Part shown: positions 19,024 through 32,472 of the stretch, piece by piece
Layout: each line of letters starts with the position of its first letter
Numbering within the stretch: the first letter of the stretch is position 1
Assembly: GCF_025165815.1 (NCBI RefSeq)
Contig: NZ_JAFFZE010000010.1
Span: 248,001 to 312,000 of the forward strand
Reading direction: 5' to 3'
DNA: 64,000 bases
Source of the DNA: Actinophytocola gossypii
GTDB taxonomy: Bacteria; Actinomycetota; Actinomycetes; Mycobacteriales; Pseudonocardiaceae
Program-made: the position numbers and the translations under genes
The notes under the pieces: generated by a model
Databases searched by the model: none
Told to the model about the DNA's origin: nothing
Seen by the model: the letters and a program-made list of their open reading frames with translations, nothing else

Positions 19024-19131
19024 GTCCCCTACCCGTCGCGCTACACCGACCCGGTCGGCGCACGACAATTGACGAAGATCACGCGCCGCACAAGTGCTTT
19101 GTCCGAAACAGGCGGGATAATTACCTCGAAT

Positions 19132-19154
19132 GGCCCAACCCGGGGGATTGGGCC
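19132..19154 (+). other. Perfect stem-loop in the leader of the permease operon
   Basis: GGCCCAA (19132-19138) and TTGGGCC (19148-19154) pair exactly around a 9-nt loop, about 155 nt before the permease start. The 286-bp gap (19024-19309) is AT-richer than its surroundings and also holds TTGACA at 19213. The hairpin could be an attenuator element, an operator or a 5' mRNA structure; there is no U-run after it. No known riboswitch was recognised. Confidence 0.4.
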
Positions 19155-19309
19155 TAGAGGGCTTCCGACGTTCGAGTCAAGAAGCAGACTGTTCACAAGC
19201 ACCGCGAATTTTTGACAATCTGACACTCCCGTCCCGGCTTCCAACCCTCAAACATGCCCGGGTGTCAAGATCGCCCTCCTATCGGCAGGCTGAAAGCGGC
19301 GGAGTAGCT

Positions 19310-20890
19310 ATGACCACTGTCAGCACGACCATGACGACTCATCCGGACGGACGGGTCGACCTACCCGATCACTCCGCGATACGCGACAGTCGCTTCTACA
19401 ACGCCGAGCTCGCCCCGGTCCCGGTCGGCTTTCGCACGTGGAACACCTACAACTACACCGCGCTGTGGATGGCCATGGCGTTCTGCGTGCCCAGCTACTC
19501 GCTGGCGGCCGGGCTGATCCTGCTCGGCATGAACTGGCTGCAGGCCTTCCTCACGATCACCCTCGCCAACGTGATCGTGCTGGTGCCGATGCTGCTCAAC
19601 AGCCACGCGGGCACCAAGTACGGCATTCCGTACCCGGTGTACTCGCGCGCCTTCTACGGGATACGCGGCGCGAACCTGGCCGCCCTGCTGCGTGCCCTGG
19701 TCGCCTGCGGCTGGTTCGGGGTGCAGACCTGGATCGGCGGTTCGGCCATGTACTCGATCATCGGCCGGCTGACCGGGCCGGTCTGGGTCGACGCGGGGAT
19801 GATCGCGGGCAAGCCGTGGACGCTGTGGCTGTGCTTCGCGCTGTTCTGGGCCGCCCAGATGGTGCTGATCTGGCGTGGAATGAACGCGGTCAAGATGCTC
19901 GAGAACTGGGCCGCGCCGGTGCTGGCGCTGAGCCTGGTCGCGGTGGCGGTGTGGATCGTCGGCGAGGCAGGCGGAATCGGCACGATCTTCTCCCAGGAGT
20001 CCCAGCTCGGTTGGGGCGCCGACTTCTGGAAGGTCTTCGCCCCCTCGCTGATGGGCATGATCGCGTTCTGGGCCACGTTGTCGCTGAACATCCCGGACTT
20101 CTCCCGGTTCGCCGCCAGCCAGCGCAAGCAGACCATCGGCCAGGCCCTCGGCCTGCCGACCAGCATGGCCTTCATCGCCATCCTGTCGATCATCATCACC
20201 TCGAGCGCCAGGGAGCTCTACGCCGATGAGATGGGCGACGATCTCAGCGCGCTGTTCAACCCGGTGAACCTGGTCAACCAGTTCGACAGCTCGTTCGCCG
20301 TGTTCCTCGGCCTGATCGTGGTCATCGTGGCGACCGTCTCCACGAACCTCGCGGCGAACGTCGTCAGCCCGTCCTACGACTTCTCCAACGCGTTCCCGAA
20401 GCGGATCAGCTTCCGGGCCGGCGGGTTGATCACCGGCATCATCGGCGTGGTCATCCTGCCGTGGAAGCTGTTCGAGGACCCGGACATCTACATCTTCGCC
20501 TGGCTCAACACCTACGGCGGGCTGCTCGCCCCGGTGGCCGGCGTGCTGGCGGCCGGGTACTGGATCCGCGCCCGCACCCACCTCGACCTCCGCGAGCTGT
20601 ACGAGGAGCGGGGCCGGTACTGGTACACCGGGGGCTGGCACTGGCCGGCGCTGGCGGCCACCCTGATCGGCGCCCTGCTCGCCGTCGGCGGCGCGTACTC
20701 GAACGTCGACGCCCAGGGCGTGAAGACCGGACCGTTCCCGGTGGACGGACTGATCCCGTTCCTCAAGGGACTCTACGACTACAGCTGGATGGTCGGATTC
20801 GTGGCAGCATTCGTCGCGTACCTGGTGCTGACCGCGGGCCGGCGCGACGAGGCCGCGTCGCACGAGCGGCGCGCGGAAGGAGTTGTCTGA
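19310..20890 (+). CDS. NCS1-family nucleobase/hydantoin:cation symporter
   Basis: 526 residues with about 12 membrane helices. The NCS1 pattern is clear: WNTYNYTALWMAMAFCVPSYSLAAG at the start, YPVYSRAFYGIRGAN, GWFGVQTWIGG, and LNIPDFSRFA. Likely substrate is uracil, dihydrouracil or a hydantoin, because the next genes open and degrade such rings. GGAG precedes ATG at 19310. Its stop overlaps the next start (TGATG), giving tight translational coupling. It is the first gene of the operon that runs to at least 24133. Confidence 0.92.
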   Translation: MTTVSTTMTTHPDGRVDLPDHSAIRDSRFYNAELAPVPVGFRTWNTYNYTALWMAMAFCVPSYSLAAGLILLGMNWLQAFLTITLANVIVLVPMLLNSHAGTKYGIPYPVYSRAFYGIRGANLAALLRALVACGWFGVQTWIGGSAMYSIIGRLTGPVWVDAGMIAGKPWTLWLCFALFWAAQMVLIWRGMNAVKMLENWAAPVLALSLVAVAVWIVGEAGGIGTIFSQESQLGWGADFWKVFAPSLMGMIAFWATLSLNIPDFSRFAASQRKQTIGQALGLPTSMAFIAILSIIITSSARELYADEMGDDLSALFNPVNLVNQFDSSFAVFLGLIVVIVATVSTNLAANVVSPSYDFSNAFPKRISFRAGGLITGIIGVVILPWKLFEDPDIYIFAWLNTYGGLLAPVAGVLAAGYWIRARTHLDLRELYEERGRYWYTGGWHWPALAATLIGALLAVGGAYSNVDAQGVKTGPFPVDGLIPFLKGLYDYSWMVGFVAAFVAYLVLTAGRRDEAASHERRAEGVV

Positions 20891-21732
20891 TGTCGGAAAT
20901 CATTCGGGCCGGCCTGGTCCAGCAGCGCTGGACGGGCGACAAGGAGTCGATGATCGAGGCCGCCGTGGCCCACATCGCGACCGCGGCCTCGCAGGGCGCA
21001 CAGGTGGTGTGCCTGCAGGAGCTGTTCTACGGCCCGTACTTCTGCCAGGTGCAGGACGCCGACTACTACTCCTACACCGAGCAGATCCCGGACGGTCCGA
21101 CCACGCAGCTGATGTGCGAGCTGGCCGACCAGCACGGCGTGGTGCTCGTGGTGCCGATGTACGAGCAGGAGCAGCCGGGGGTCTACTACAACACCGCCGC
21201 GGTGATCGACGCGGACGGCACCTACCTCGGCAAGCACCGCAAGAACCACATCCCGCAGGTCAAGGGCTTCTGGGAGAAGTTCTACTTCCGGCCGGGCAAC
21301 CTCGGCTACCCGGTGTTCGACACCGCGGTCGGCAAGATCGGCGTCTACATCTGCTACGAGCGGCACTTCCCGGAGGGCTGGCGGGCGCTCGGGCTGGGCG
21401 GCGCGCGGATCGTGTTCAACCCGTCGGCGACCAGCCGGGGCCTGTCGCAGTACCTGTGGCGGCTGGAGCAGCCCGCCGCCGCGGTGGCCAACGAGTACTT
21501 CGTCGGCGCGATCAACCGGGTCGGGGTGGAACCGTTGGGCGACAACGACTTCTATGGTCAGTCGTACTTCGCCGACCCGCGCGGGCAGCTGGTCGGGGAC
21601 GCCGCGTCGGACACCGACGACGAGGTCGTGGTGCGCGACCTGGACATGGGCCGGCTGACCGAGGTCCGCGACCTGTGGCAGTTCTACCGCGACCGCCGCC
21701 CGGACACCTACGACTCGCTGACCGGGGCGTGA
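20890..21732 (+). CDS. Nitrilase-superfamily N-carbamoyl-beta-alanine amidohydrolase (beta-ureidopropionase-like)
   Basis: 280 residues, carbon-nitrogen hydrolase fold with triad Glu44 (LQELF), Lys118 (KHRKNH) and Cys155 (YICYERHFP). It closely follows the beta-ureidopropionase/N-carbamoylputrescine amidase pattern. Directly before dihydropyrimidinase, the expected reaction is N-carbamoyl-beta-alanine to beta-alanine, CO2 and ammonia. A strong GGAAGGAG site lies before ATG at 20890. If the substrate were N-carbamoylputrescine, a putrescine gene would be expected nearby, and none is. Confidence 0.9.
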   Translation: MSEIIRAGLVQQRWTGDKESMIEAAVAHIATAASQGAQVVCLQELFYGPYFCQVQDADYYSYTEQIPDGPTTQLMCELADQHGVVLVVPMYEQEQPGVYYNTAAVIDADGTYLGKHRKNHIPQVKGFWEKFYFRPGNLGYPVFDTAVGKIGVYICYERHFPEGWRALGLGGARIVFNPSATSRGLSQYLWRLEQPAAAVANEYFVGAINRVGVEPLGDNDFYGQSYFADPRGQLVGDAASDTDDEVVVRDLDMGRLTEVRDLWQFYRDRRPDTYDSLTGA

Positions 21733-21737
21733 GGCCG

Positions 21738-23123
21738 ATGCGCACGCTCATCCGCAACGGCACGGTGGTCAATGCCGGCGGCGCGCTGGCCGCGGACGTG
21801 CTGGTCGACGGCGAGACGATCGCCGCGGTCACCGCGCCCGGCCTGTTCGACACCGCGGACCGGGTGATCGAGGCCGAGGGCCGGTACGTGCTGCCCGGCG
21901 GGATCGACGCGCACACGCACATGGAGATGCCGTTCGGCGGCACGTTCTCGGCGGACACCTTCGCCACCGGCACCACCGCGGCGGCGTGGGGCGGGACGAC
22001 CACGATCATCGACTTCGCGGTGCAGGCCAAGGGCACCTCCCTGCTGTCCACCCTGGACAAGTGGCACGAGAAGGCCGACGGGCACTGCGCGGTCGACTAC
22101 GGGTTCCACATGATCGTCTCCGACGTCAACGAGCAGTCGTTGAAGGAGATGGAGTCCTGCATCGACGCGGGCGTGAACAGCTTCAAGATGTTCATGGCCT
22201 ACCCCGGCGTGTTCTACGCGACCGACGGCGAGATCCTGCGCGCGATGAACAAGGCCACCGAGACCGGCTCGATGATCATGATGCACGCGGAGAACGGCAT
22301 CGCGATCGACGAACTGGTCGCCGACGCCATCGCGTCCGGCCGCACCGATCCGGTCGAGCACGGCATCACCCGCCCGCCGGAGCTGGAGGGCGAGGCGACG
22401 TCGCGGGCCATCCGGCTGGCGAAGGTCACCGGCGCACCGCTCTACATCGTGCACCTGTCGGCCCGGCACGCGCTGGAGGCGGTGGCGGAGGCCAGGAACA
22501 CCGGGCAGAACGTGTTCGCCGAGACCTGCCCGCAGTACCTGTACCTGTCCATCGAGGACCTGGCCAAGCCGGAGTTCGAGGGCGCGAAGTACGTGGCGTC
22601 GCCGCCGCTGCGGCCCAAGGACCACCAGGCCGACCTGTGGCGCGGGCTGCGCACCAACGACCTGTCGGTGGTGTCGACGGATCACTGCCCGTTCTGCTTC
22701 AAGGACCAGAAGGAACTTGGCCGAGGGGACTTCTCCAAGATCCCGAACGGCATGCCCGGCGTGGAGCACCGGATGGACCTGCTGCACCAGGGCGTGGTGG
22801 CCGGCGAGCTGTCGCTGGCGCGCTGGGTGGAGGTCGCGTCGGCGACGCCGGCACGGATGTTCGGGCTGTACGGGCGCAAGGGCGTGATCGCGCCCGGGGC
22901 GGACGCGGACATCGTGGTGTACGACCCGGCGGCGACCCAGACGCTGTCGGTCGAGACGCACCACATGAACGTCGACTACTCGGCGTACGAGGGCATGTCG
23001 GTCACCGGCCGGGTGGAGACCGTGCTGTCCCGGGGCTCGGTGGTGATCGCCGACGGCGAGTTCCACGGCCGCGAGGGCCACGGGAAGTTCCTGTCCCGCG
23101 ATCTGTCGCAGTACCTGGTTTAG
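21738..23123 (+). CDS. hydA: Dihydropyrimidinase / D-hydantoinase
   Basis: 461 residues, cyclic amidohydrolase. The binuclear metal site is complete: His59 and His61 (DAHTHMEMP), Lys150 for carbamylation (SFKMFMAYPG), His183, His239 and Asp315 (STDHCPF). It would hydrolyse 5,6-dihydrouracil to N-carbamoyl-beta-alanine. ATG at 21738 is chosen; an in-frame GTG at 21729 overlapping the previous stop is possible. It lies inside one operon with the permease, amidohydrolase and an LLM oxidoreductase, and all intergenic gaps are 11 bp or less. Confidence 0.93.
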   Translation: MRTLIRNGTVVNAGGALAADVLVDGETIAAVTAPGLFDTADRVIEAEGRYVLPGGIDAHTHMEMPFGGTFSADTFATGTTAAAWGGTTTIIDFAVQAKGTSLLSTLDKWHEKADGHCAVDYGFHMIVSDVNEQSLKEMESCIDAGVNSFKMFMAYPGVFYATDGEILRAMNKATETGSMIMMHAENGIAIDELVADAIASGRTDPVEHGITRPPELEGEATSRAIRLAKVTGAPLYIVHLSARHALEAVAEARNTGQNVFAETCPQYLYLSIEDLAKPEFEGAKYVASPPLRPKDHQADLWRGLRTNDLSVVSTDHCPFCFKDQKELGRGDFSKIPNGMPGVEHRMDLLHQGVVAGELSLARWVEVASATPARMFGLYGRKGVIAPGADADIVVYDPAATQTLSVETHHMNVDYSAYEGMSVTGRVETVLSRGSVVIADGEFHGREGHGKFLSRDLSQYLV

Positions 23124-23134
23124 GAGGGTCCACG

Positions 23135-24133
23135 ATGGACTTCGGAGTGGTGCTGCAGACCGACCCGCCGGCGCGGGACGTCGTGCGGCTGATGACCTCG
23201 GCCGAGGAGCAGGGCTTCCGGTACGGCTGGACGTTCGACTCGTGCGTGCTGTGGCAGGAGCCGTTCGTCATCTACTCGCAGATCCTGGCGAGCACCCGGT
23301 CGATGGTGGTGGGGCCGATGGTGACGAACCCGTCCACCCGGGACTGGTCGGTCACCGCGTCGCTGTTCGCCACGCTCAACGACATGTTCGGCAACCGCAC
23401 GGTGTGCGGGATCGGCCGAGGGGACTCCGCGCGCCGGGTCATCGGGCAGAAGCCGGCGTCGCTGTCGGTGCTGCGCGAGTCGATGCACGTGATCCGCGAG
23501 CTGGCCGAGGGCCGGGAGGTCGACCACCACGGGGCGCCGGTGCGGATTCCGTGGGTGCGGGACGGGCGGCTGGAGGTGTGGATGGCCGCGTACGGGCCGA
23601 AGGCGCTCCGGATGGTCGGCGAGCACGCCGACGGCTTCATCCTGCAGACGGCCGACCCCGCGATCACCCGCTGGACGATCGAGTCGGTGCGGGCGGCGGC
23701 CCGTGATGCCGGCCGTGACCCGGGCGGGATCACGATGTGCGTGGCGGCGCCCGCGTACGTCGGTGACGACCTGGCGCACCAGCGGGACCAGTTGCGCTGG
23801 TTCGGCGGGATGGTCGGCAACCACGTGGCGGACCTGGTGGCCAGGTACGGCGAGTCCGGCCCGGTGCCGCGCGAGCTGACCGACTACATCCGCGGCCGGG
23901 AGGGCTACGACTACGCCCACCACGGCAAGGCCGGGAACCCGTCGACCGACTTCGTGCCCGACGAGATCGTCGACCGGTTCTGCCTGCTCGGCCCGGCGTC
24001 GGCGCACGTCGACCGCCTCACCGAGCTGGCCGAGCTGGGTGTCGACCAGTTCGCCATCTACCTGATGCACGACGCGAAGGAGCAGACGCTGGCGGCCTAC
24101 GGCAACGAGATCATCCCGAAGCTCACCGCCTGA
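23135..24133 (+). CDS. LLM-class flavin/F420-dependent oxidoreductase of the hydantoinase-linked type
   Basis: 332 residues with a luciferase-like fold: MDFGVVLQTDPPARDVVRL, the GWTFDSCVLWQEPFVIYSQIL region, VVGPMVTNPSTRDWSV, GIGRGDSARRVIG. From memory it matches the TIGR03842 F420-type family that recurs next to dihydropyrimidinase. No dihydropyrimidine dehydrogenase gene lies in the window, so this protein is the candidate for uracil/dihydrouracil redox chemistry, which is inference. GGAGGG precedes ATG at 23135, 11 bp after the hydA stop. Confidence 0.85.
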   Translation: MDFGVVLQTDPPARDVVRLMTSAEEQGFRYGWTFDSCVLWQEPFVIYSQILASTRSMVVGPMVTNPSTRDWSVTASLFATLNDMFGNRTVCGIGRGDSARRVIGQKPASLSVLRESMHVIRELAEGREVDHHGAPVRIPWVRDGRLEVWMAAYGPKALRMVGEHADGFILQTADPAITRWTIESVRAAARDAGRDPGGITMCVAAPAYVGDDLAHQRDQLRWFGGMVGNHVADLVARYGESGPVPRELTDYIRGREGYDYAHHGKAGNPSTDFVPDEIVDRFCLLGPASAHVDRLTELAELGVDQFAIYLMHDAKEQTLAAYGNEIIPKLTA

Positions 24134-24170
24134 TCAACGATTCGCCGGGTCGGCGGCGGATCACGCAACG

Positions 24171-24189
24171 ATTGCTCGGTATGCGCAAT
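24171..24189. promoter_or_regulatory. Inverted repeat ATTGC-N9-GCAAT upstream of the ornithine-type aminotransferase
   Basis: ATTGC at 24171-24175 and GCAAT at 24185-24189 lie in the 100-bp gap before the aminotransferase, flanked by GCAAC on the left and TTCGC on the right. The shape is like Lrp/AsnC-type or PucR-type sites. It suggests the aminotransferase has its own promoter. Confidence 0.4.
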
Positions 24190-24233
24190 GGTTCGCGGAT
24201 GAAACCGCCGCCGACTGGGCTTAACCTGTTCAC

Positions 24234-25439
24234 ATGTCGAAGACTGCCGCCGACCTCATCGCGCTCGACGAGACGTGGAGCACGCACAACTACCACCCGT
24301 TGCCGGTCGTCCTCGCCGAGGCCGACGGAGCCTGGGTGACCGACGTGGACGGCAAGCGGTACCTCGACTTCCTGGCCGGCTACTCGGCGCTCAACTTCGG
24401 CCACCGCCACCCGGCGCTGGTCGAGGCCGCGGTGGCGCAGCTGGGCCGGCTCACGCTGACCAGCCGCGCGTTCCACCACGACCAGCTGGGCCTGTTCTGC
24501 CGGGAGCTGGCCGAGCTGACCGGCACCGAGATGGTGCTGCCGATGAACTCCGGCGCCGAGGCCGTCGAGTCCGCGATCAAGGTGGCCCGCAAGTGGGCGT
24601 ACCAGGTCAAGGGCGTGCCCGACGGCACGGCGGAGATCGTGGTCGCCGGCTCGAACTTCCACGGCCGCACCACGACGATCGTCTCGTTCTCCACCGACGA
24701 CACCGCCCGCGCCGACTTCGGCCCGTTCACCCCGGGCTTCCAGGTCGTCAAGTACGGCGACGCCCAGGCGCTGGAGGCGGCCCTGTCGCCGCGCACGGCG
24801 GCGGTCCTGATCGAGCCGGTGCAGGGCGAGGCCGGCGTGCTGGTGCCGCCGGCCGGGTACCTGCGCGAGGTCCGCGAGCTGTGCGACGCGAACAACACCC
24901 TGCTGATCGTCGACGAGATCCAGTCCGGCCTGGCCCGCACCGGCACCCTGCTCGCCTCCGAGCACGACGGCGTCCGCGCCGACCTGTACACCCTGGGCAA
25001 GGCCCTCGGCGGCGGCATCATGCCGGTGTCCGCGGTGGTCGGCCGCCGCGACGTCCTGGGTGTGCTGCGTCCGGGTGAGCACGGCTCCACCTTCGGCGGC
25101 AACCCGCTGGCCTGCGCGGTGGGCCGCGCGGTCATCCGGCTGCTGGCGACCGGCGAGTTCCAGGAGCGGTCCCGGACGCTGGGCGCGCACCTGCACACGC
25201 GCCTGGGCGAGCTGGTCGGGCACGGGGTGGCCGAGGTCCGCGGCCGCGGTTTGTGGGCCGGCGTGGAGATCGCCCCCGGCGGGCGGACGGCCCGCGAGCT
25301 GAGCGAGACCCTGATGGCGCGCGGGGTCCTGTGCAAGGAGACCCACGACACCACCCTGCGCATCGCCCCGCCCCTGGTCATCGCCAAGGACGACCTGGAC
25401 CACGGCATCGACACCATCGCCGCCGCCCTGGCCGGGTGA
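24234..25439 (+). CDS. rocD: Ornithine aminotransferase-like class III PLP enzyme
   Basis: 401 residues. Family marks are NYHPLPVVLAEADGAWVTDVDG, LPMNSGAEAVESAIKVARKW, VDEIQSGLARTG and the Schiff-base Lys in LGKALGGG. It fits ornithine:2-oxo-acid transaminase better than the AGXT2-like gene upstream. In this context it might instead act on another omega-amino acid, so the symbol rests on overall pattern. A 100-bp gap with an inverted repeat separates it from the oxidoreductase, so it may be transcribed separately. It ends 8 bp before a response-regulator gene. Confidence 0.85.
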   Translation: MSKTAADLIALDETWSTHNYHPLPVVLAEADGAWVTDVDGKRYLDFLAGYSALNFGHRHPALVEAAVAQLGRLTLTSRAFHHDQLGLFCRELAELTGTEMVLPMNSGAEAVESAIKVARKWAYQVKGVPDGTAEIVVAGSNFHGRTTTIVSFSTDDTARADFGPFTPGFQVVKYGDAQALEAALSPRTAAVLIEPVQGEAGVLVPPAGYLREVRELCDANNTLLIVDEIQSGLARTGTLLASEHDGVRADLYTLGKALGGGIMPVSAVVGRRDVLGVLRPGEHGSTFGGNPLACAVGRAVIRLLATGEFQERSRTLGAHLHTRLGELVGHGVAEVRGRGLWAGVEIAPGGRTARELSETLMARGVLCKETHDTTLRIAPPLVIAKDDLDHGIDTIAAALAG

Positions 25440-25446
25440 GGACGAG

Positions 25447-26070
25447 GTGACGCCCGCGGCCGGGCCGATCTCGGTGCTGCTCGCCGAGGACATGCACCTG
25501 GTGCGCGGCGCGGTGGCGGCACTGCTCGACAACGAGCCCGACCTCGACGTGGTCGCCGAGGTGTCCACCGGTGACGGTGTGCTGCCGGCCGTGCTCGCGC
25601 ACCGGCCGGACGTGGTGGTCCTGGACGTCGACCTGCCCGTCATGGACGGCATCGCCGTCGCGGCCTCGCTGCGGGAGCGGGCGCCGGACTGTCGCGTGCT
25701 GGTGCTGACCGCGCTGGGCAGGCCGACCGTGCTGCGCAACGCGATGGCGGCCGGCGTCGACGGGTTCCTGGCCAAGGACGCGGCGCCCACCGAGCTGGCC
25801 CCCTCGATCCGCGCCGTCGTGGCGGGTGAGCGGGTGCTCGATCCGGCGCTCGCCGCGGCCGCGCTCAGGCTGCGGGACAACCCCCTCAGCGAGCGCGAGG
25901 TCGAGGTGCTGCGGCTCGCCGCGGACGGCGCCGACACCGCCGAGATCGCGCGCCGCCTGTACCTGAGCAGTGGCACGGTCCGCAACTACCTCGGTGCCGT
26001 GGTCACCAAGCTGGACGCCCGCAACCGCCTGGACGCGGTCCGCATCGCCGTCGAACACGACTGGCTCTGA
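25447..26070 (+). CDS. NarL/LuxR-type response regulator
   Basis: 207 residues. Receiver domain 1-120 with the acidic pair in LLAEDMHL, the phospho-acceptor Asp in VVVLDVDLPVMDG and the conserved Lys in FLAKDA. LuxR HTH about 145-200 (PLSEREVEVLRLAADGADTAEIARRL). It resembles DesR-like regulators of membrane or envelope stress. GTG at 25447 follows GAGGACGAG. It converges on the sensor-kinase gene with 7 bp between stops, so the presumed partners are transcribed separately. Confidence 0.92.
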   Translation: MTPAAGPISVLLAEDMHLVRGAVAALLDNEPDLDVVAEVSTGDGVLPAVLAHRPDVVVLDVDLPVMDGIAVAASLRERAPDCRVLVLTALGRPTVLRNAMAAGVDGFLAKDAAPTELAPSIRAVVAGERVLDPALAAAALRLRDNPLSEREVEVLRLAADGADTAEIARRLYLSSGTVRNYLGAVVTKLDARNRLDAVRIAVEHDWL

Positions 26071-26077
26071 CGCGTCC

Positions 26078-27793
26078 TCAGGCGCTGGGCTCCACCGGCA
26101 GCCGGACGGTCAGCGCGAAGCCGTCCTCGTCGGCACGGGTGGTGAGCGCGCCCCCCGACGCGCGCACCCGCTCGGCCAGGTTCCCGATCCCCCGCCCGGC
26201 CCGGTGGCCCTCCGCGGCGACGGTCGAGTCGTTGGCCACCCGCAACCGGACCTCGTCGCCGGCCCGATCGGTGTCGATCACGCACAGCCGCGCCCGACTG
26301 TGGCGCAGCACGTTGGTCACCGCCTCCCGCAGCACCGTCGCCAGCAGACCGTCCACCCGGGACGGCAGCCGGCCGTGCCGGGTGGTCAGCCGCAGCGACG
26401 TGCCCGCGGCGGCGAGCACGTCACCGGTCGACCCAAGCTCGCGGTCCAGCGACAACGTGACGCTGTCGCCGGGGATCGCGCGCAGGTCGGCGAGCGAGCG
26501 ACGGGCGATGCCGGCGATCTCGGCCGCGTCCCGCCCGGCCCGGTCCGGCAGCCGTACCGCCAGCCCGGCCTTGATCACGATCGCCGACAGGCCGTGGCCG
26601 AGCAGGTCGTGGGTGTCCCGCACGATCCGCCGCCGTTCCCGCGCGACGGCGATCTCGGCTAGCTCCCGCCGGGTCTCCCGCACCTCGTGGACGAGTCCGG
26701 TGGTCAGCGCGATCCCGTGGAAAATCACGGCCATCACCACGGTGTCCAGGCTGAGCGAGAGCACGTCGAAGGCCGCGACGCCCCGGGTGGTTAGGACCAC
26801 CGGCACCGCGGCCAGCAGCGCGGCGCAGAGCGGCCACGCGATCCTGCCGGGCAGCTGGATCAGCAGCGCGCCCGCGGCGAGACCGACGAGCTGCGGGTAC
26901 GGCGTGCCGGGTTGGACCAACGGGAGACACGCCAGCACGACCTGCACGGGCAGCGTCCACGCGACCAGCGCGGCCCTGGCCGGCGGGGTCCTCGGCAGGG
27001 AGTGGTGCAGTTGCAGGGCGACGACCGCGGTCAACAGGAGCAGGTCGCCGGCGAACCATGCGGCCGGCGGGTGCGACCGTTGGACGAACAGCGTCGCCAC
27101 CACCAGGTAGGACAGGTGCACGACGACCAGGATCGGCAGCATCATCCTCGGGGTCAGGTCCGTCGGCACCGCTCCCGTCGGCCGGGCGAGGTCCTGGCGC
27201 ACCCGCTCCGCGGCCTGACGGGCGAGCGTCGCGACGCGCCCGAGGTCGCCGCGCTCGGCCTGCCGGATGATCTCCGCGAGCGCGCTGCCGACGGTCGCCT
27301 CGAGCTCCTGGGACACCTCGGCCCGCTCGGTCGCCACGGACCGGGCCGCCAGCTCGCCCCTGGTCGCGTGCAACTCGGCGCGCACCTCGTCGAGCCTGGT
27401 CAGCGCGAAGATCACCAGCCCCTGCGAGATCGTGTTGCCCACGGCGTTCGCACAGTCGTAGAGGCTCGTCGTGGTGCTGAGGCCGGCGGCGAGCACGACG
27501 GCGGCGAACAGCGCCCAGCGCAGCCGGCGGTCCGGCACGATCAGCAGCACCGAGCCGGACAGGAATCCCGGCAGCGCGGCCCACGGGAACAGCGCGGCCT
27601 GCGCGGCCAACGTCCACCACCCCCGCAGGCGCCGTGTCCTGGGCAGACAGTGGAGCACCTGGAGCGCGAAGGTCAGCGCGGTCGCCCAGTCCGGCGACGA
27701 CAGTCCCGGACCGACCGCGAACGCGACCAGCACGAGGACGACCAGCACGGGTGTCCACTGTAGCCAGCTGTCCGGTTCGTGCGTTGCGCACAT
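26078..27793 (-). CDS. NarL-type sensor histidine kinase with duplicated membrane/dimerisation module
   Basis: 571 residues. Half 1 (about 10-205) has several membrane helices and a degenerate HisKA_3-like helix pair. Half 2 (about 215-571) has further membrane helices, a true HisKA_3 with His395 in RDTHDLLGHG, and a HATPase_c domain with N494 in REAVTNVLRHS. Residues 147-176 align without gaps to 377-406 (10 of 30 identical, including ELA, VA, ER, G, L, I), and the phospho-His position is Glu165 in the first copy. LQxxHxLPRT also occurs twice (44 and 260). ATG at 27793 is chosen because it clears the divergent gene. Confidence 0.88.
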   Translation of the reverse strand: MCATHEPDSWLQWTPVLVVLVLVAFAVGPGLSSPDWATALTFALQVLHCLPRTRRLRGWWTLAAQAALFPWAALPGFLSGSVLLIVPDRRLRWALFAAVVLAAGLSTTTSLYDCANAVGNTISQGLVIFALTRLDEVRAELHATRGELAARSVATERAEVSQELEATVGSALAEIIRQAERGDLGRVATLARQAAERVRQDLARPTGAVPTDLTPRMMLPILVVVHLSYLVVATLFVQRSHPPAAWFAGDLLLLTAVVALQLHHSLPRTPPARAALVAWTLPVQVVLACLPLVQPGTPYPQLVGLAAGALLIQLPGRIAWPLCAALLAAVPVVLTTRGVAAFDVLSLSLDTVVMAVIFHGIALTTGLVHEVRETRRELAEIAVARERRRIVRDTHDLLGHGLSAIVIKAGLAVRLPDRAGRDAAEIAGIARRSLADLRAIPGDSVTLSLDRELGSTGDVLAAAGTSLRLTTRHGRLPSRVDGLLATVLREAVTNVLRHSRARLCVIDTDRAGDEVRLRVANDSTVAAEGHRAGRGIGNLAERVRASGGALTTRADEDGFALTVRLPVEPSA

Positions 27794-27849: not shown

Positions 27850-29769
27850 ATGTACCGAAACGCTGTGGCGCTCGCGCTCGCCGCGATGCTGCTCGCCGCG
27901 CCGGCCGCCGCCGCGCAGCCCGCACCGGCTCCGCCGGCCGACCTCGAACGGCGGCTGGACGACCTGGTCGGCGGGCAGTTGACCGACGACCACATCCCGG
28001 GTGCGGTGGTGACGGTGGTCGCGGACGGCCGGGTCGTGCTGTCCAAGGGGTACGGGCTCGCCGACGTCCACGACGGGACGCCGATGGACCCGGTGCGAAC
28101 CACCCTGCTCGGCGCCTCGGAGGCGAAGGTGCTGACCGCGATCGCCGCCGCGCAGCTGATCGCGTCCGGCCGGATCGACCCGGACGCGGACGTCAACCGG
28201 TACCTGACCGACTTCACGATCGAGGACACCTTCCCCGGCCGGCCGGTCACCATGAACCACCTGCTCACCCACACGGCGGGCTTCGACCAGGACTTCGTCG
28301 GGCTGAACAGCACCGGCTCGGAGGGCATCGAGGCACTCGGCCGCAGCCTCGCCGACAAGCAGCCGATCCGGGTGCGCCCACCCGGCGAGGCGATGGCCTA
28401 CGACAACTACGGCGCCGCGCTCGCGGGCCACCTCGTCGAGGTGGTATCCGGGCAACCGTTCGACCGGTACGTCGCCGACCACGTCCTGCGCCCGCTCGGC
28501 ATGGACAGCACCACCTTCACCCAGCCGACGCCGACCGCGCTCGCGGCCCGCCTGGCCACCGGGCACCGGCCGGCCGGCACGGGCCAGGACGTCGCGTCGG
28601 GGCAGTACGGCCCCTGGACCCCGACCGGGGGCGGCACCGTGATCAACGCGGCGGACCTGGGTGCGCTCATGCTGGCCCTGCTCGGCGACGATCCCCGCCT
28701 CGGCGACGGCGTCGCGCGGCTGGTCAAGCGGCAGCACTTCACGCAGGACCCGAGGGTGCCGGGCATCGGGTACCTGCTGGTCGAGGGCAGCCATGGCGAC
28801 GAACGGGTGCTGAGCAAGGACGGTGACCTGCCCGGGTTCCACCACGACCTGGCGCTGCTGCCCGACCGGGGAGTCGGTGTCTACGTCGGCTTCAACGGCG
28901 ACGGCGACGCGGGCGCCGCGTACTGGGACGCCAAGGTCGTACGCGCCGCGGTGCTGGACCACTTCGCCCCGCGCACACCGTCGGCCACGCCGGACCCGGC
29001 GCCCGGCGACGTCGGCCAGTACGCCGGCAGCTACCGGGCGTCCAACACCAGTGAGTACTCGCTGGCGAAGGTGACCGCGCTGACCACGCCGGTCTCGGTC
29101 GAGGAGGCGGGTGAGGGCAGGCTGCGCACCAGCGGCATCAGCGCCGACCCGGCCCAGGCGACCCAGGAGTGGGTACACGTGGGCGACGGCGAGTTCGCCG
29201 AGGTCGGCGGGTCCGAGCGGATCGTGTTCGGCCCCGACGGGATCCTCGCCGGCGGCTCCGGCCCGGAGGCGGTCGTGTACGTGCCGATCGCCTGGTACCA
29301 GAGCCCGGCGCCGCACCTGTTGCTGCTGGTGGTCGGGGTGGTCGGGCTGCTGGCCGGGTTCGTCTGGTTCCCCGTCGCCGCGCTGGTCCGCCGCCGGCGC
29401 GGGGCCGGCACGACCTGGCCGCTGCGCGTGGCGCGGGTGGTCGCCTGGCTCAACTGTGCCGTCGGCGTGGCGTTCCTCGTCGGCTTCGTGGTGCTGGTCG
29501 CGGACGGCAACGTCATGAACGAGGTGATCCTGACCGGTTCGCCGCTGCTGACCGTGCTCCCCTACCTGCCCGCCGCGATGCTCGTGACCTTCGCGGGCAT
29601 GGTGGTGCTGGCCGTGGTCGGCATCGGAAAGTCCTGGTGGCGGGCCCGCGGCTGGACCGGCTACCTGGCGATGACCGTCGCCGCGGCCGCCTTCCTCGGT
29701 GTCTGCGCCTACTACGACCTACTCGCCATCGGCGACACGGTCTCACCGGGCGGCTTCCACAGCAGCTGA
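27850..29769 (+). CDS. Secreted beta-lactamase-fold serine hydrolase with C-terminal membrane domain
   Basis: 639 residues. Signal peptide about 1-23 (ALALAAMLLAAPAAAAQ); penicillin-binding-like hydrolase domain about 30-365 with Ser90-x-x-Lys93 (GASEAK) and Tyr184-x-Asn186 (YDNYG). A linker and a small beta domain follow, then about four membrane helices (about 470-630). Class C-type domains of this kind act as esterases or D-Ala peptidases on envelope substrates; the true substrate is unknown. The third motif is KDG-like rather than HxG or KTG. ATG at 27850 lies 56 bp from the divergent kinase start. Confidence 0.88.
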   Translation: MYRNAVALALAAMLLAAPAAAAQPAPAPPADLERRLDDLVGGQLTDDHIPGAVVTVVADGRVVLSKGYGLADVHDGTPMDPVRTTLLGASEAKVLTAIAAAQLIASGRIDPDADVNRYLTDFTIEDTFPGRPVTMNHLLTHTAGFDQDFVGLNSTGSEGIEALGRSLADKQPIRVRPPGEAMAYDNYGAALAGHLVEVVSGQPFDRYVADHVLRPLGMDSTTFTQPTPTALAARLATGHRPAGTGQDVASGQYGPWTPTGGGTVINAADLGALMLALLGDDPRLGDGVARLVKRQHFTQDPRVPGIGYLLVEGSHGDERVLSKDGDLPGFHHDLALLPDRGVGVYVGFNGDGDAGAAYWDAKVVRAAVLDHFAPRTPSATPDPAPGDVGQYAGSYRASNTSEYSLAKVTALTTPVSVEEAGEGRLRTSGISADPAQATQEWVHVGDGEFAEVGGSERIVFGPDGILAGGSGPEAVVYVPIAWYQSPAPHLLLLVVGVVGLLAGFVWFPVAALVRRRRGAGTTWPLRVARVVAWLNCAVGVAFLVGFVVLVADGNVMNEVILTGSPLLTVLPYLPAAMLVTFAGMVVLAVVGIGKSWWRARGWTGYLAMTVAAAAFLGVCAYYDLLAIGDTVSPGGFHSS

Positions 29770-29776
29770 CCATCGC

Positions 29777-31402
29777 TCAACGGGCGCGGTCGACGCGGCC
29801 CTCGTCCCAGATCGGATAGTCCACTTCGGACACCACACCGTCGGAGCGGAAGATCAGGTAGCGGTCGAAGGAGCGGGCGAACCAGCGGTCGTGGGTGACC
29901 GCGAGGACCGTGCCGGTGAACTCCTCCAGGGCGTCCTGGAGGGCCTCGGCCGAGGTCAGGTCGAGGTTGTCGGTCGGCTCGTCGAGCAGGAGCAGGGTGG
30001 CGCCGGACAACTCCAGTAGCAGGATCTGGAACCGGGCCTGCTGACCGCCCGACAACGTCTCGAAGCGCTGCTCGCGAGCCGGCGCCAGGCCGTACCGGGA
30101 CAGGACTGCCGACGCACGGCCCTGGTCCAACCCGGCACGCTCGCCGTCGCCGTGCCAGAGGATGTCGGTCAGCGTCCGGCCGAGCCATTCCGGGTGCTGG
30201 TGGGTCTGGGCGAACAACCCGGGCACCACTCGCGCGCCCAGCCGCGCCGACCCGGTGTGCGCCACCTCGTCACCGGCCAGCAGGCGCAGGAAGTGGCTCT
30301 TGCCCGACCCGTTCGAACCCAGCACGCACACCCGGTCGGCGAAGAACACCTCGACGTCGAACGGCTTCATCAGGCCGGTCAGCTCCAGGTCCGCGCAGGT
30401 GATCGCGCGCAGGCCCGTTCGGCCACCGCGCAGCCTCGGGCGGACCCGCTGCTCGCGCGGTGGTAGCGGCGGCGCCCCGGCCTCCTCGAACTTCCGCAGC
30501 CTGGTCTGCGCCGCCTTGTACCGGGCCGCCATCGCGTCGCTGATCTTCGCGGCCTGTTGCAGTGACCGCACCAGCTCCTTGAGCTTCTCGTGCTCCTCGT
30601 CCCACCGGCGGCGCAGCTCGGCCATCCGCTCCCAGCGGGCCACCCGGGCGTCGTGCCAGGTGGTGAAGCCGCCGCCGTGTACCCAGGCGGTGCCGCCTTC
30701 CAGGGTGACGACGTGCTTCGCGGCCGAGGCGAGCAGTTCGCGGTCGTGGCTGACCAGCAGCACCGCCTTGGCGCACTCGGCGAGCCTGCGTTCCAGCCAG
30801 CGTTTGCCCGGCACGTCCAGGTAGTTGTCCGGCTCGTCGAGCAGCAGCACCTGCTCGGGGCCGGTGAGCAGCGCTTCCAGCACCAGACGCTTCTGCTCGC
30901 CGCCGGACAGGGTTCGCACCTCGCGGAACCGTGCCCGGTCGAACGGCACGCCGAGCGCGGCGACCGTCACCGTGTCCCACAGGACCTCGGCCTGGTAGCC
31001 GCCCGCCTCGCCCCACGCGTGCAGCGCGTTCGCGTACCGCAGCTGGGTCGGCTCGTCGTCGGTGTCCATCATCGCCAGTTCGGCGGCGTCCAGGCCTTCG
31101 GCGGCCGCTCGCAGCGCGGGCGGGGCGACCGCGAGGAGCAGGTCACGGACGGTGCGGTCGTCCCGCACCGAGCCGATGAACTGCGGCATCACGCCGAGCC
31201 CGCCCTGGACGGCGACGCCGCCGTCGCGCGCCGCCAGCTCACCGGCGAGGATCCGCAGCAGCGTCGTCTTGCCCGCGCCGTTCTCGCCGACGAGGGCCAC
31301 GACCTGCCCCGCGCTCACCCGGAACGACACGTCACCGAACAGTCGGCGTCCGTCGTCGAGCCGGTAGCCGAGCCCGTTCGCTTCGAGGTGTCCGGTAGCC
31401 AC
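29777..31402 (-). CDS. ABC-F-family ATPase
   Basis: 541 residues with two soluble ABC domains and no membrane segments. Walker A: GENGAGKTT and GSNGSGKSH. Signature: LSGGEQKR and LSGGQQAR. Walker B: VLLLDEP in both halves. The linker is about 80 residues and highly charged, as in ribosome-acting ABC-F proteins. Such proteins can protect ribosomes from antibiotics or tune translation; no antibiotic gene is nearby, so either role is open. GTG at 31402 fits the family N-terminus, but no strong ribosome site precedes it. It ends 7 bp from the converging hydrolase stop. Confidence 0.88.
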   Translation of the reverse strand: MATGHLEANGLGYRLDDGRRLFGDVSFRVSAGQVVALVGENGAGKTTLLRILAGELAARDGGVAVQGGLGVMPQFIGSVRDDRTVRDLLLAVAPPALRAAAEGLDAAELAMMDTDDEPTQLRYANALHAWGEAGGYQAEVLWDTVTVAALGVPFDRARFREVRTLSGGEQKRLVLEALLTGPEQVLLLDEPDNYLDVPGKRWLERRLAECAKAVLLVSHDRELLASAAKHVVTLEGGTAWVHGGGFTTWHDARVARWERMAELRRRWDEEHEKLKELVRSLQQAAKISDAMAARYKAAQTRLRKFEEAGAPPLPPREQRVRPRLRGGRTGLRAITCADLELTGLMKPFDVEVFFADRVCVLGSNGSGKSHFLRLLAGDEVAHTGSARLGARVVPGLFAQTHQHPEWLGRTLTDILWHGDGERAGLDQGRASAVLSRYGLAPAREQRFETLSGGQQARFQILLLELSGATLLLLDEPTDNLDLTSAEALQDALEEFTGTVLAVTHDRWFARSFDRYLIFRSDGVVSEVDYPIWDEGRVDRAR

Positions 31403-31542
31403 GCCGCGATCGTCCGGGAAATCACCGATTCGTGCGACTCTGTTTTCGCCGAAGTGGTAATGGGGTGCCGGTACCGCTGTCCGGATCCGAAGCGGTACGC
31501 TGCGTAGCCTGCGAGGGCTACCTGCGACGGGAAGGGATGGGC

Positions 31543-31707
31543 GTGACCGACACCCCGATCTACGACCAGATTCGCCAGGAGCTCGAGTCCGGCGGGAAAC
31601 GAGCCGAACGCCCCTCCGCCCGCCGGTCGAGGGCGGCCGACGAGCCGAGCCAGAGCGTGTCCGTGTGGTCCCTGGTGAACCAGCACCGCTCCGGGAAGCG
31701 CCACTGA
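31543..31707 (+). CDS. Small conserved-looking hydrophilic protein, unknown function
   Basis: 54 residues (VTDTPIYDQIRQELESGG... SVWSLVNQHRSGKRH), with a hydrophilic basic middle and no membrane helix. GTG at 31543 has GAAGGG about 6 nt upstream; ATG at 31537 is an in-frame alternative. It lies 21 bp before the RibD-like reductase gene and is probably cotranscribed. The 140-bp gap to the divergent ABC-F start would hold both promoters. Confidence 0.65.
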   Translation: MTDTPIYDQIRQELESGGKRAERPSARRSRAADEPSQSVSVWSLVNQHRSGKRH

Positions 31708-31728
31708 TCGGCGTGCTGTGATGTCCCC

Positions 31729-32472
31729 ATGCACCTGCTGCGGCCCGACGAGACCCTGGACGACCGTGCACTGGAGGACCTCTACGCCTACCCGGAGACG
31801 CTGAGCCGGCCGTTCGTGCAGGTGAACTTCATCGCCAGCGCGGACGGCGCGGCGACTTCCGGCGGGAAGTCGGCCGGTCTCTCCCATCCGGCCGACAAGA
31901 AGATCTTCGCCCTGGGCCGTGACCTGGCCGACGTCGTGCTGGTCGGCGCGGGCACCGTGCTCGTGGAGGGCTACCGGGGCATCAAGCGCACCGAGGTCCG
32001 CGCCGAGCGCCGGGCCCGCCTCGGACTGGCCGAGCTGCCCCCGATCGCCGTGGTCACCGGCCGCTGCTCGATCGGACCCGAGGCGAGTGTGATCGCCGAC
32101 ACCCGGGTGCCGCCGATCGTGCTCACCACCGAGGCCGCGCCGGCCGCCCGCCGCGCCGACCTGACCGCCGCCGGCGCCGACGTCGTCGTGGCCGGCGCGG
32201 AGAAGGTCGACCCGCACCGCGCGCTCGACGCCCTCGCCGAGCGGGGCCTGCTGCGGGTGTGCTGCGAGGGCGGCCCCACCCTGTTCGCCGACCTGATCGC
32301 GGCCGGCCTGGTCGATCAGCTGTGCCTGACCGTCGCCCCCCTGCTCACCGGCGCCGGCGCACCTCGCATCGCCGAGGGTGTGCCCGGCCAGGAACCACTC
32401 GGCCTGGAACTGTCGTCGGTGCTGACCGAGGACGGTTTCCTGATGCTCCGCTACCGCAGGAGCCCTACGTGA
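31729..32472 (+). CDS. RibD C-terminal-type pyrimidine reductase
   Basis: 247 residues with the dihydrofolate-reductase-like fold of RibD reductase domains: RPFVQVNFIASADGAAT, ALGRDLADVVLVGAGT, CEGGPTLFADL and DQLCLTVAPLL. NADPH-dependent reduction of a deaminated ribosylamino-pyrimidine in riboflavin synthesis is the model reaction, but stand-alone copies outside rib operons have unclear substrates. Its end overlaps the converging DNA ligase by 8 bp. The small gene before it is likely in the same transcript. Confidence 0.85.
   Translation: MHLLRPDETLDDRALEDLYAYPETLSRPFVQVNFIASADGAATSGGKSAGLSHPADKKIFALGRDLADVVLVGAGTVLVEGYRGIKRTEVRAERRARLGLAELPPIAVVTGRCSIGPEASVIADTRVPPIVLTTEAAPAARRADLTAAGADVVVAGAEKVDPHRALDALAERGLLRVCCEGGPTLFADLIAAGLVDQLCLTVAPLLTGAGAPRIAEGVPGQEPLGLELSSVLTEDGFLMLRYRRSPT

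Follow-up and report, generated by a model that had tools for sequence, protein, structure and literature searches.

The way in which signalling depends on asymmetry within a histidine kinase dimer is not settled, and has usually been approached through mutated or mixed dimers. Kinases may also be governed by kinase-like proteins: DivL, a pseudo-histidine kinase of Caulobacter, is reported to regulate the kinase CckA; it keeps a CA domain. Among the systems closest to the protein considered here is DesK of Bacillus subtilis, a HisKA_3 kinase partnered by the LuxR/NarL-type regulator DesR. DesK is reported to function as a homodimer of single-unit chains, to carry its phosphatase residue at Gln193 and, in the phosphomimetic form H188E used for crystals, to adopt an asymmetric state resembling that of phosphorylated DesK (PMC5231405). 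A second precedent comes from laboratory evolution of Corynebacterium glutamicum, where a ChrS frameshifted after its DHp domain raised output via the paralogue HrrS, its own histidine being dispensable; an in-frame deletion of the CA domain helped too, though less, whilst also removing the DHp domain abolished the growth advantage (excerpts of PMC9491836). Heterodimers were seen between native ChrS and HrrS in the excerpted account, but none with truncated ChrS in that assay (PMC9491836). The monomeric kinase EL346 functions as a single chain whose dimer face is masked internally; it differs from the present protein in belonging to the HWE/HisKA2 family, in using a LOV sensor as the cover and in having no duplication (PMC10359499, in part). 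KdpD, which has been called a 'tandem' serine and histidine kinase, represents a different arrangement (PMC12471899, excerpt), and four further papers matched by search terms deal, in their excerpts, with subjects other than a double-kinase layout (PMC3899027, PMC11371814, PMC9289397, PMC4916428). The layout set out below was described nowhere in a literature search on tandem, double, duplicated and pseudo histidine kinases and on DHp domains, most subscription papers lying outside its scope; within that scope the view of the preliminary description, that no such kinase had been described, holds.

The window, a stretch of 64,000 nucleotides from Actinophytocola gossypii, carries on its minus strand at 26078..27793 a tandem-duplicated DesK-type sensor histidine kinase of 571 amino acids, with its ATG at 27793 and its stop at 26078. 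There is some uncertainty about roughly the first 15 residues, the frame of the Amycolatopsis antarctica orthologue beginning at residue 16 in window numbering. The second copy is complete. Its DHp domain (26474..26704, minus strand) contains the only HisKA_3 match that Pfam finds in the whole chain (residues 386–440, 39.1 bits against a curated cut-off of 24), and includes His395 (26609..26611, minus strand), the phospho-acceptor, followed by Asp396, a pair that recurs in three orthologues. The ATP-binding (CA) domain follows at residues 441–571 (26081..26473, minus strand); its HATPase_c match of 14.7 bits falls below the Pfam cut-off of 26.4, but the N box, ND and GxG are all found in the alignment of units. 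Among solved structures DesK was the top sequence match (E 1e-21, residues 370–566), and it also ranked first when the predicted model was searched with Foldseek, at about 30% identity in the alignment; the C-terminal part of DivL was among the Foldseek matches. Copy 2 is by these alignments a DesK-type (HisKA_3) kinase, with the His-Asp motif kept and the same type of regulator next door. One difference concerns the position of Gln193 in DesK, five residues after the phospho-histidine, which is His400 in the window kinase (codon at 26594–26596) and Tyr in the three orthologues. Across the aligned double kinases Leu, Met, Phe or Tyr frequently stands there, and phosphatase activity may therefore be weak in many of them.

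The adjoining regulator (25447..26070, plus strand; Response_reg and GerE by Pfam) is of the NarL/DesR type and lies tail to tail with the kinase, 7 bp away. This pairing is kept in the three orthologues, whose regulators are 75–80% identical to that of the window. More widely, 43 of the 50 fetched loci that contain a two-copy chain also have a regulator of 50% identity or more across at least 100 residues, whilst within the fetched stretches of L044, L045, L047, L090, L093, L107 and L112 there was no regulator match of that length.

What precedes the complete kinase unit is a second, reduced version of it. A profile built on one unit matches the single reading frame twice, at residues 37–203 and 214–567. 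Aligned directly, residues 42–199 and 258–438 give a local score of 140, whereas 2000 shuffles average 38 and reach no more than 70, a contrast somewhat flattered because shuffling disrupts the membrane segments; with the DHp parts alone the score is 61, and the maximum over 5000 shuffles is 60. Other comparisons give independent support. HHalign relates DHp1 of the four orthologues to the DHp2 profile with a probability of 91.7% (E 7.7e-7), and five other first copies without a CA domain to the second-copy profile with 97.3% (E 1.7e-11), whilst BLAST matches the first 208 residues to the second half of L010, an orthologue, at E 1e-6. On these comparisons the two halves are homologous by internal duplication and the window kinase belongs to a series of tandem double DesK-type kinases. 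The preliminary description had proposed that a whole sensor and DHp unit precedes a complete kinase within the same chain, and the whole-half score, HHalign and the profile bear this out; the series of fused kinases was absent from it. Its LQxxHxLPRT motif, shared at residues 44 and 260, and its ungapped match between residues 147–176 and 377–406 (10 of 30 identical) were both reproduced. The latter is no evidence of homology, however, for 50 of 60 shuffles of the first half reach at least 10 identities in their best ungapped 30-mer.

In copy 1 a DHp-like two-helix hairpin occupies residues 134–203 (27185..27394, minus strand; profile, HHalign and models), and no CA domain comes after it. The position of the phospho-histidine, opposite His395 as originally noted, is taken by Glu165 (27299..27301, minus strand), and the next residue is Ala where Asp would be expected. 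Lacking both the phospho-histidine and a CA domain, copy 1 is not classed as a kinase. AlphaFold2 models from 3-sequence alignments place hairpins at residues 111–180/184–203 and 341–414/416–439 of the window protein (mean pLDDT 68, pTM 0.45) and at 95–164/168–184 and 326–399/403–422 of the A. antarctica orthologue (L130; mean pLDDT 64, pTM 0.42), and are too shallow to place one half relative to the other. Both nonetheless contain the hairpin that had been read at residues 140–205, and with HHalign in agreement the predicted hairpin of copy 1 is homologous to DHp. A frameshift or assembly error behind the missing first CA domain was ruled out, the junction being common to the four orthologues.

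The membrane part of copy 1 (residues 15–133; 27395..27751, minus strand) is read as six segments with the N-terminus probably inside, from hydropathy, loop charges and homology to copy 2. The count of six is indirect, since segments 2 and 6 fall below the hydropathy cut-off and were taken from helices of the model. When the loops are assigned manually, four and three Lys plus Arg fall in the loops that follow segments 2 and 4 and none in the remaining three, which agrees with an N-terminus inside and a cytoplasmic DHp1. Copy 2 has six hydrophobic segments at residues 215–363 (26705..27151, minus strand; model and hydropathy), where loop charges of 1, 2, 0, 1 and 1 give a weak positive-inside signal; this counts against the reading that we favour below.

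The relatives of this kinase show the stages between an intact double kinase and the window protein. Loci were picked for long reading frames or good similarity, and their frames searched with the one-unit profile; several rows come from one genus, so the counts that follow are not a census. In a set of 62 loci, selected mainly on the length of their reading frames, 50 have a two-copy chain; two-sensor chains are no rarity in this bacterial group. One unit or more was found in 106 frames, and two units in 71 of these, the window's included. Both CA domains are present in 54 of the 71, the first is missing in 15 (its match ending no later than profile position 260 of 359) and two are partial; the Murinocardiopsis flavida chain (L129), outside the 71, was added by alignment as a sixteenth without a first CA domain. 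The reverse kind, with the second CA domain missing and the first kept, was not found among the 71 two-copy chains. The full doubles (for example L040 and L041), tandem double DesK-type kinases of Actinomycetes for which we found no name, have sensor, DHp and CA twice per chain with a regulator nearby. They retain the first histidine in 46 of 54 cases, whereas the window kinase has neither histidine nor CA domain in copy 1.

Even in the full doubles the loss is one-sided. Of the 54, 45 have the histidine in each copy, eight have lost it from copy 1 (Ser in four, Asn in two, Gln in one and Glu in one, L049) and one from copy 2. The GxG of the G2 box is absent from copy 1 in 17 of 52 and from copy 2 in one of 52, L115 and L155 having been left out of this test as each was split into three matches. 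In the chains examined, decay hits copy 1 far more often than copy 2. The single full double with its phospho-histidine gone from copy 2 (Asp) and not from copy 1 is L042 (4938–7409). Amongst the 16 chains without a first CA domain the phospho-histidine of copy 2 is always present, whilst the first position is Glu in five, Arg in five, His in two, and Gln, Ala, Val and Asp in one each. The two that keep His are L149 (406–2478) and L131 (1916–4150; Nonomuraea gerenzanensis); that residue could be phosphorylated by the CA domain of the second copy, which would provide a natural test of cis versus trans phosphorylation.

A tree of 84 units (membrane and DHp columns, without L131, L140, L149 and L150; quick search with SH-aLRT only) separates first from second copies, with 5 and 7 label changes against shuffled means near 27. 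The two copies of L042, for instance, are sisters, and exceptions of this kind make several separate duplications likely. First copies without a CA domain occupy at least three separate places: one starred cluster holds the orthologue group together with L047, L050, L055, L058 and L120; L095 and L099 sit next to full doubles from the same genus; and L118_783 is found beside the full double L118_2956. Adjacent gene pairs in which each gene is a two-copy kinase were seen at L092, L094, L095, L099, L108, L118, L119 and L121, one member having a degenerate or shortened first copy at L094, L095, L099 and L118. Plasmid matches were considered as full double kinases and set aside, the Streptomyces rows aligning both halves of the query with a single stretch of about 1.1 kb and so looking like single kinases. 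The 11.85 Mb record NZ_LT559118.1, source of L131 and filed among plasmids, is probably the N. gerenzanensis chromosome.

Orthologues of the exact window arrangement number four with the window itself. The others are from A. antarctica (L089, identical with L130; 68% identity to the window kinase), from a genome of the same family as the window (L039/L010; 58–60%) and from M. flavida, which belongs to another order, Streptosporangiales (60%). A search of 390 genomes of the family with the N-terminal part found an orthologue in three, the window included, with weaker matches in 135 others; a genome scan with two short N-terminal patterns gave only two named homologues, and of 30 stretches fitting a pattern in a viral collection, searched for homologues to deepen the alignment, none was confirmed. 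Between the window and the other three, copy 1 (residues 15–203) is 64–76% identical with dN/dS of 0.28–0.45, and copy 2 is 58–65% identical with dN/dS of 0.39–0.48; the ratio is lower for copy 1 in all three pairs. These are rough values, obtained by the Nei-Gojobori method with a custom script on GC-rich genes. For the hairpins alone they are 0.27, 0.48 and 0.41 in copy 1 and 0.44, 0.43 and 0.44 in copy 2, which amounts to about equal constraint and not to better conservation of the former, a point against the reading favoured below. Purifying selection, by these estimates, acts on copy 1 among the orthologues, and path lengths to the orthologues in the tree are likewise shorter for copy 1 than for copy 2.

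We consider it likely that the protein is a duplicated and fused kinase in which copy 1 serves as a non-catalytic second sensor and DHp domain controlling a copy 2 that alone is active; a natural, hemi-active double-sensor kinase is the best reading of the locus. On this view, duplication of a gene for a DesK-type membrane kinase and in-frame fusion of the copies would have produced a single chain whose two sensor-DHp units are both turned towards the cytoplasm, after which copy 1 would have lost its CA domain and phospho-histidine whilst being retained for sensing and as a DHp hairpin. Copy 2 would autophosphorylate through His395 and its own CA domain and pass the phosphate to the convergently encoded regulator. 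The activity of copy 2 would be set by copy 1, most probably with DHp1 packed on DHp2 to make a lopsided dimer out of one chain. Such putative pairing within the chain is plausible, and it would oblige copy 2 to phosphorylate its own histidine in cis, the other half having no acceptor. The parts of the ChrS system, a sensor and DHp without a CA domain plus a paralogous kinase unit, are all present in the chain, and by analogy the protein looks like the ChrS/HrrS arrangement fixed on one polypeptide. In evolved ChrS, too, an actinobacterial sensor and DHp act through a paralogous full kinase, but there the two are separate proteins and the truncation is a frameshift from laboratory evolution (PMC9491836, excerpt), whereas the window kinase is a natural single chain occurring in two orders. 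That truncated ChrS formed no heterodimer in the reported assay we count against our reading. Compared with DivL, a separate protein, copy 1 is fused to the kinase that it would regulate. More tentatively, and with somewhat less than even confidence, we suggest that Actinomycetes have repeatedly turned DesK-type dimers into single-chain lopsided dimers, with two sensors, two bundled DHp domains, one phospho-histidine and one CA domain, of which the window protein would be a finished case, its one active site receiving input from two different sensors in fixed asymmetry.

The strongest competitor is that two chains pair, DHp1 with DHp1' and DHp2 with DHp2', leaving copy 1 as an additional module for sensing and dimerisation on top of an otherwise classical homodimeric kinase; cis and trans phosphorylation would then both be possible. 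DesK itself functioning as a homodimer (PMC5231405, excerpt) speaks for this. On the other side, and as an argument of little weight, stacking gives no special reason for both helices of DHp1 to stay while the CA domain is lost in several lineages. We regard such pairing as a real possibility, though clearly less probable than control by copy 1 within the chain.

A different emphasis falls on Glu165 itself, which the preliminary description took either for a mimic of phospho-histidine or for a spoiled site. As a permanent mimic it would hold DHp1 in a phosphorylated-like, asymmetric state and bias copy 2. Glu stands at this position in all four orthologues, and also in L095 and the full double L049, and DesK H188E, asymmetric and similar to phosphorylated DesK, offers a precedent (PMC5231405, excerpt). 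Yet 11 of the 16 first copies without a CA domain have no Glu, five of them having Arg instead, and the Asp expected after the histidine is lost as well. The five with Glu include the four orthologues; outside these it occurs in one chain of 12 (L095), and Glu is therefore not a defining feature of the design. A spoiled site fits the class as a whole, an essential Glu does not, and the conservation of Glu165 extends to the orthologues but not to the other shortened first copies. By analogy with DesK, mimicry is possible for the orthologue group, and we think it unlikely that it is the key to the protein.

Decay of copy 1 into a mere membrane anchor with no signalling role is less probable again, and we give it little credence. 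Its catalytic residues are gone and the residue at the histidine position varies among lineages, as such a remnant would lead one to expect, but among the orthologues copy 1 is conserved at least as well as copy 2, both in identity and dN/dS and in its shorter tree paths. That the likeness of the halves is mere chance between helical, hydrophobic stretches, a view which the chance-level ungapped match would permit, can be dismissed given the whole-half score, HHalign and the existence of relatives with a full kinase in each half.

The wider value of the series is that it offers natural, covalent double kinases at several stages, some with both halves intact and others with one half dead, so that each half can be mutated separately on one chain. 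The locus also illustrates that domain annotation, which reports one HisKA_3 here, can conceal half a kinase.

A PF00144 serine hydrolase (27850..29769, plus strand; Pfam) is divergent from the kinase, the two starts lying 56 bp apart, and a gene 65–71% identical to it adjoins two of the three other orthologues, L039 and A. antarctica (L089/L130). In M. flavida a PF00144 gene lies beyond the regulator, but it did not match the window hydrolase at 1e-8. The hydrolase is a candidate target or partner of the kinase system, and an envelope-related signal would be our guess from its presence. On the other side, ending 7 bp before the regulator, 19130–25439 encodes in succession a nucleobase permease, an amidohydrolase, a luciferase-like monooxygenase and a class III aminotransferase, a row of genes that looks like a pyrimidine-degradation operon. 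We saw no sign of a tie between the kinase and these genes, the A. antarctica frames beyond the regulator differing by eye. Further along, the protein encoded at 29780–31771 is matched twice as an ABC ATPase by Pfam, which gives no membrane domain for it, and is presumably of the ABC-F type.
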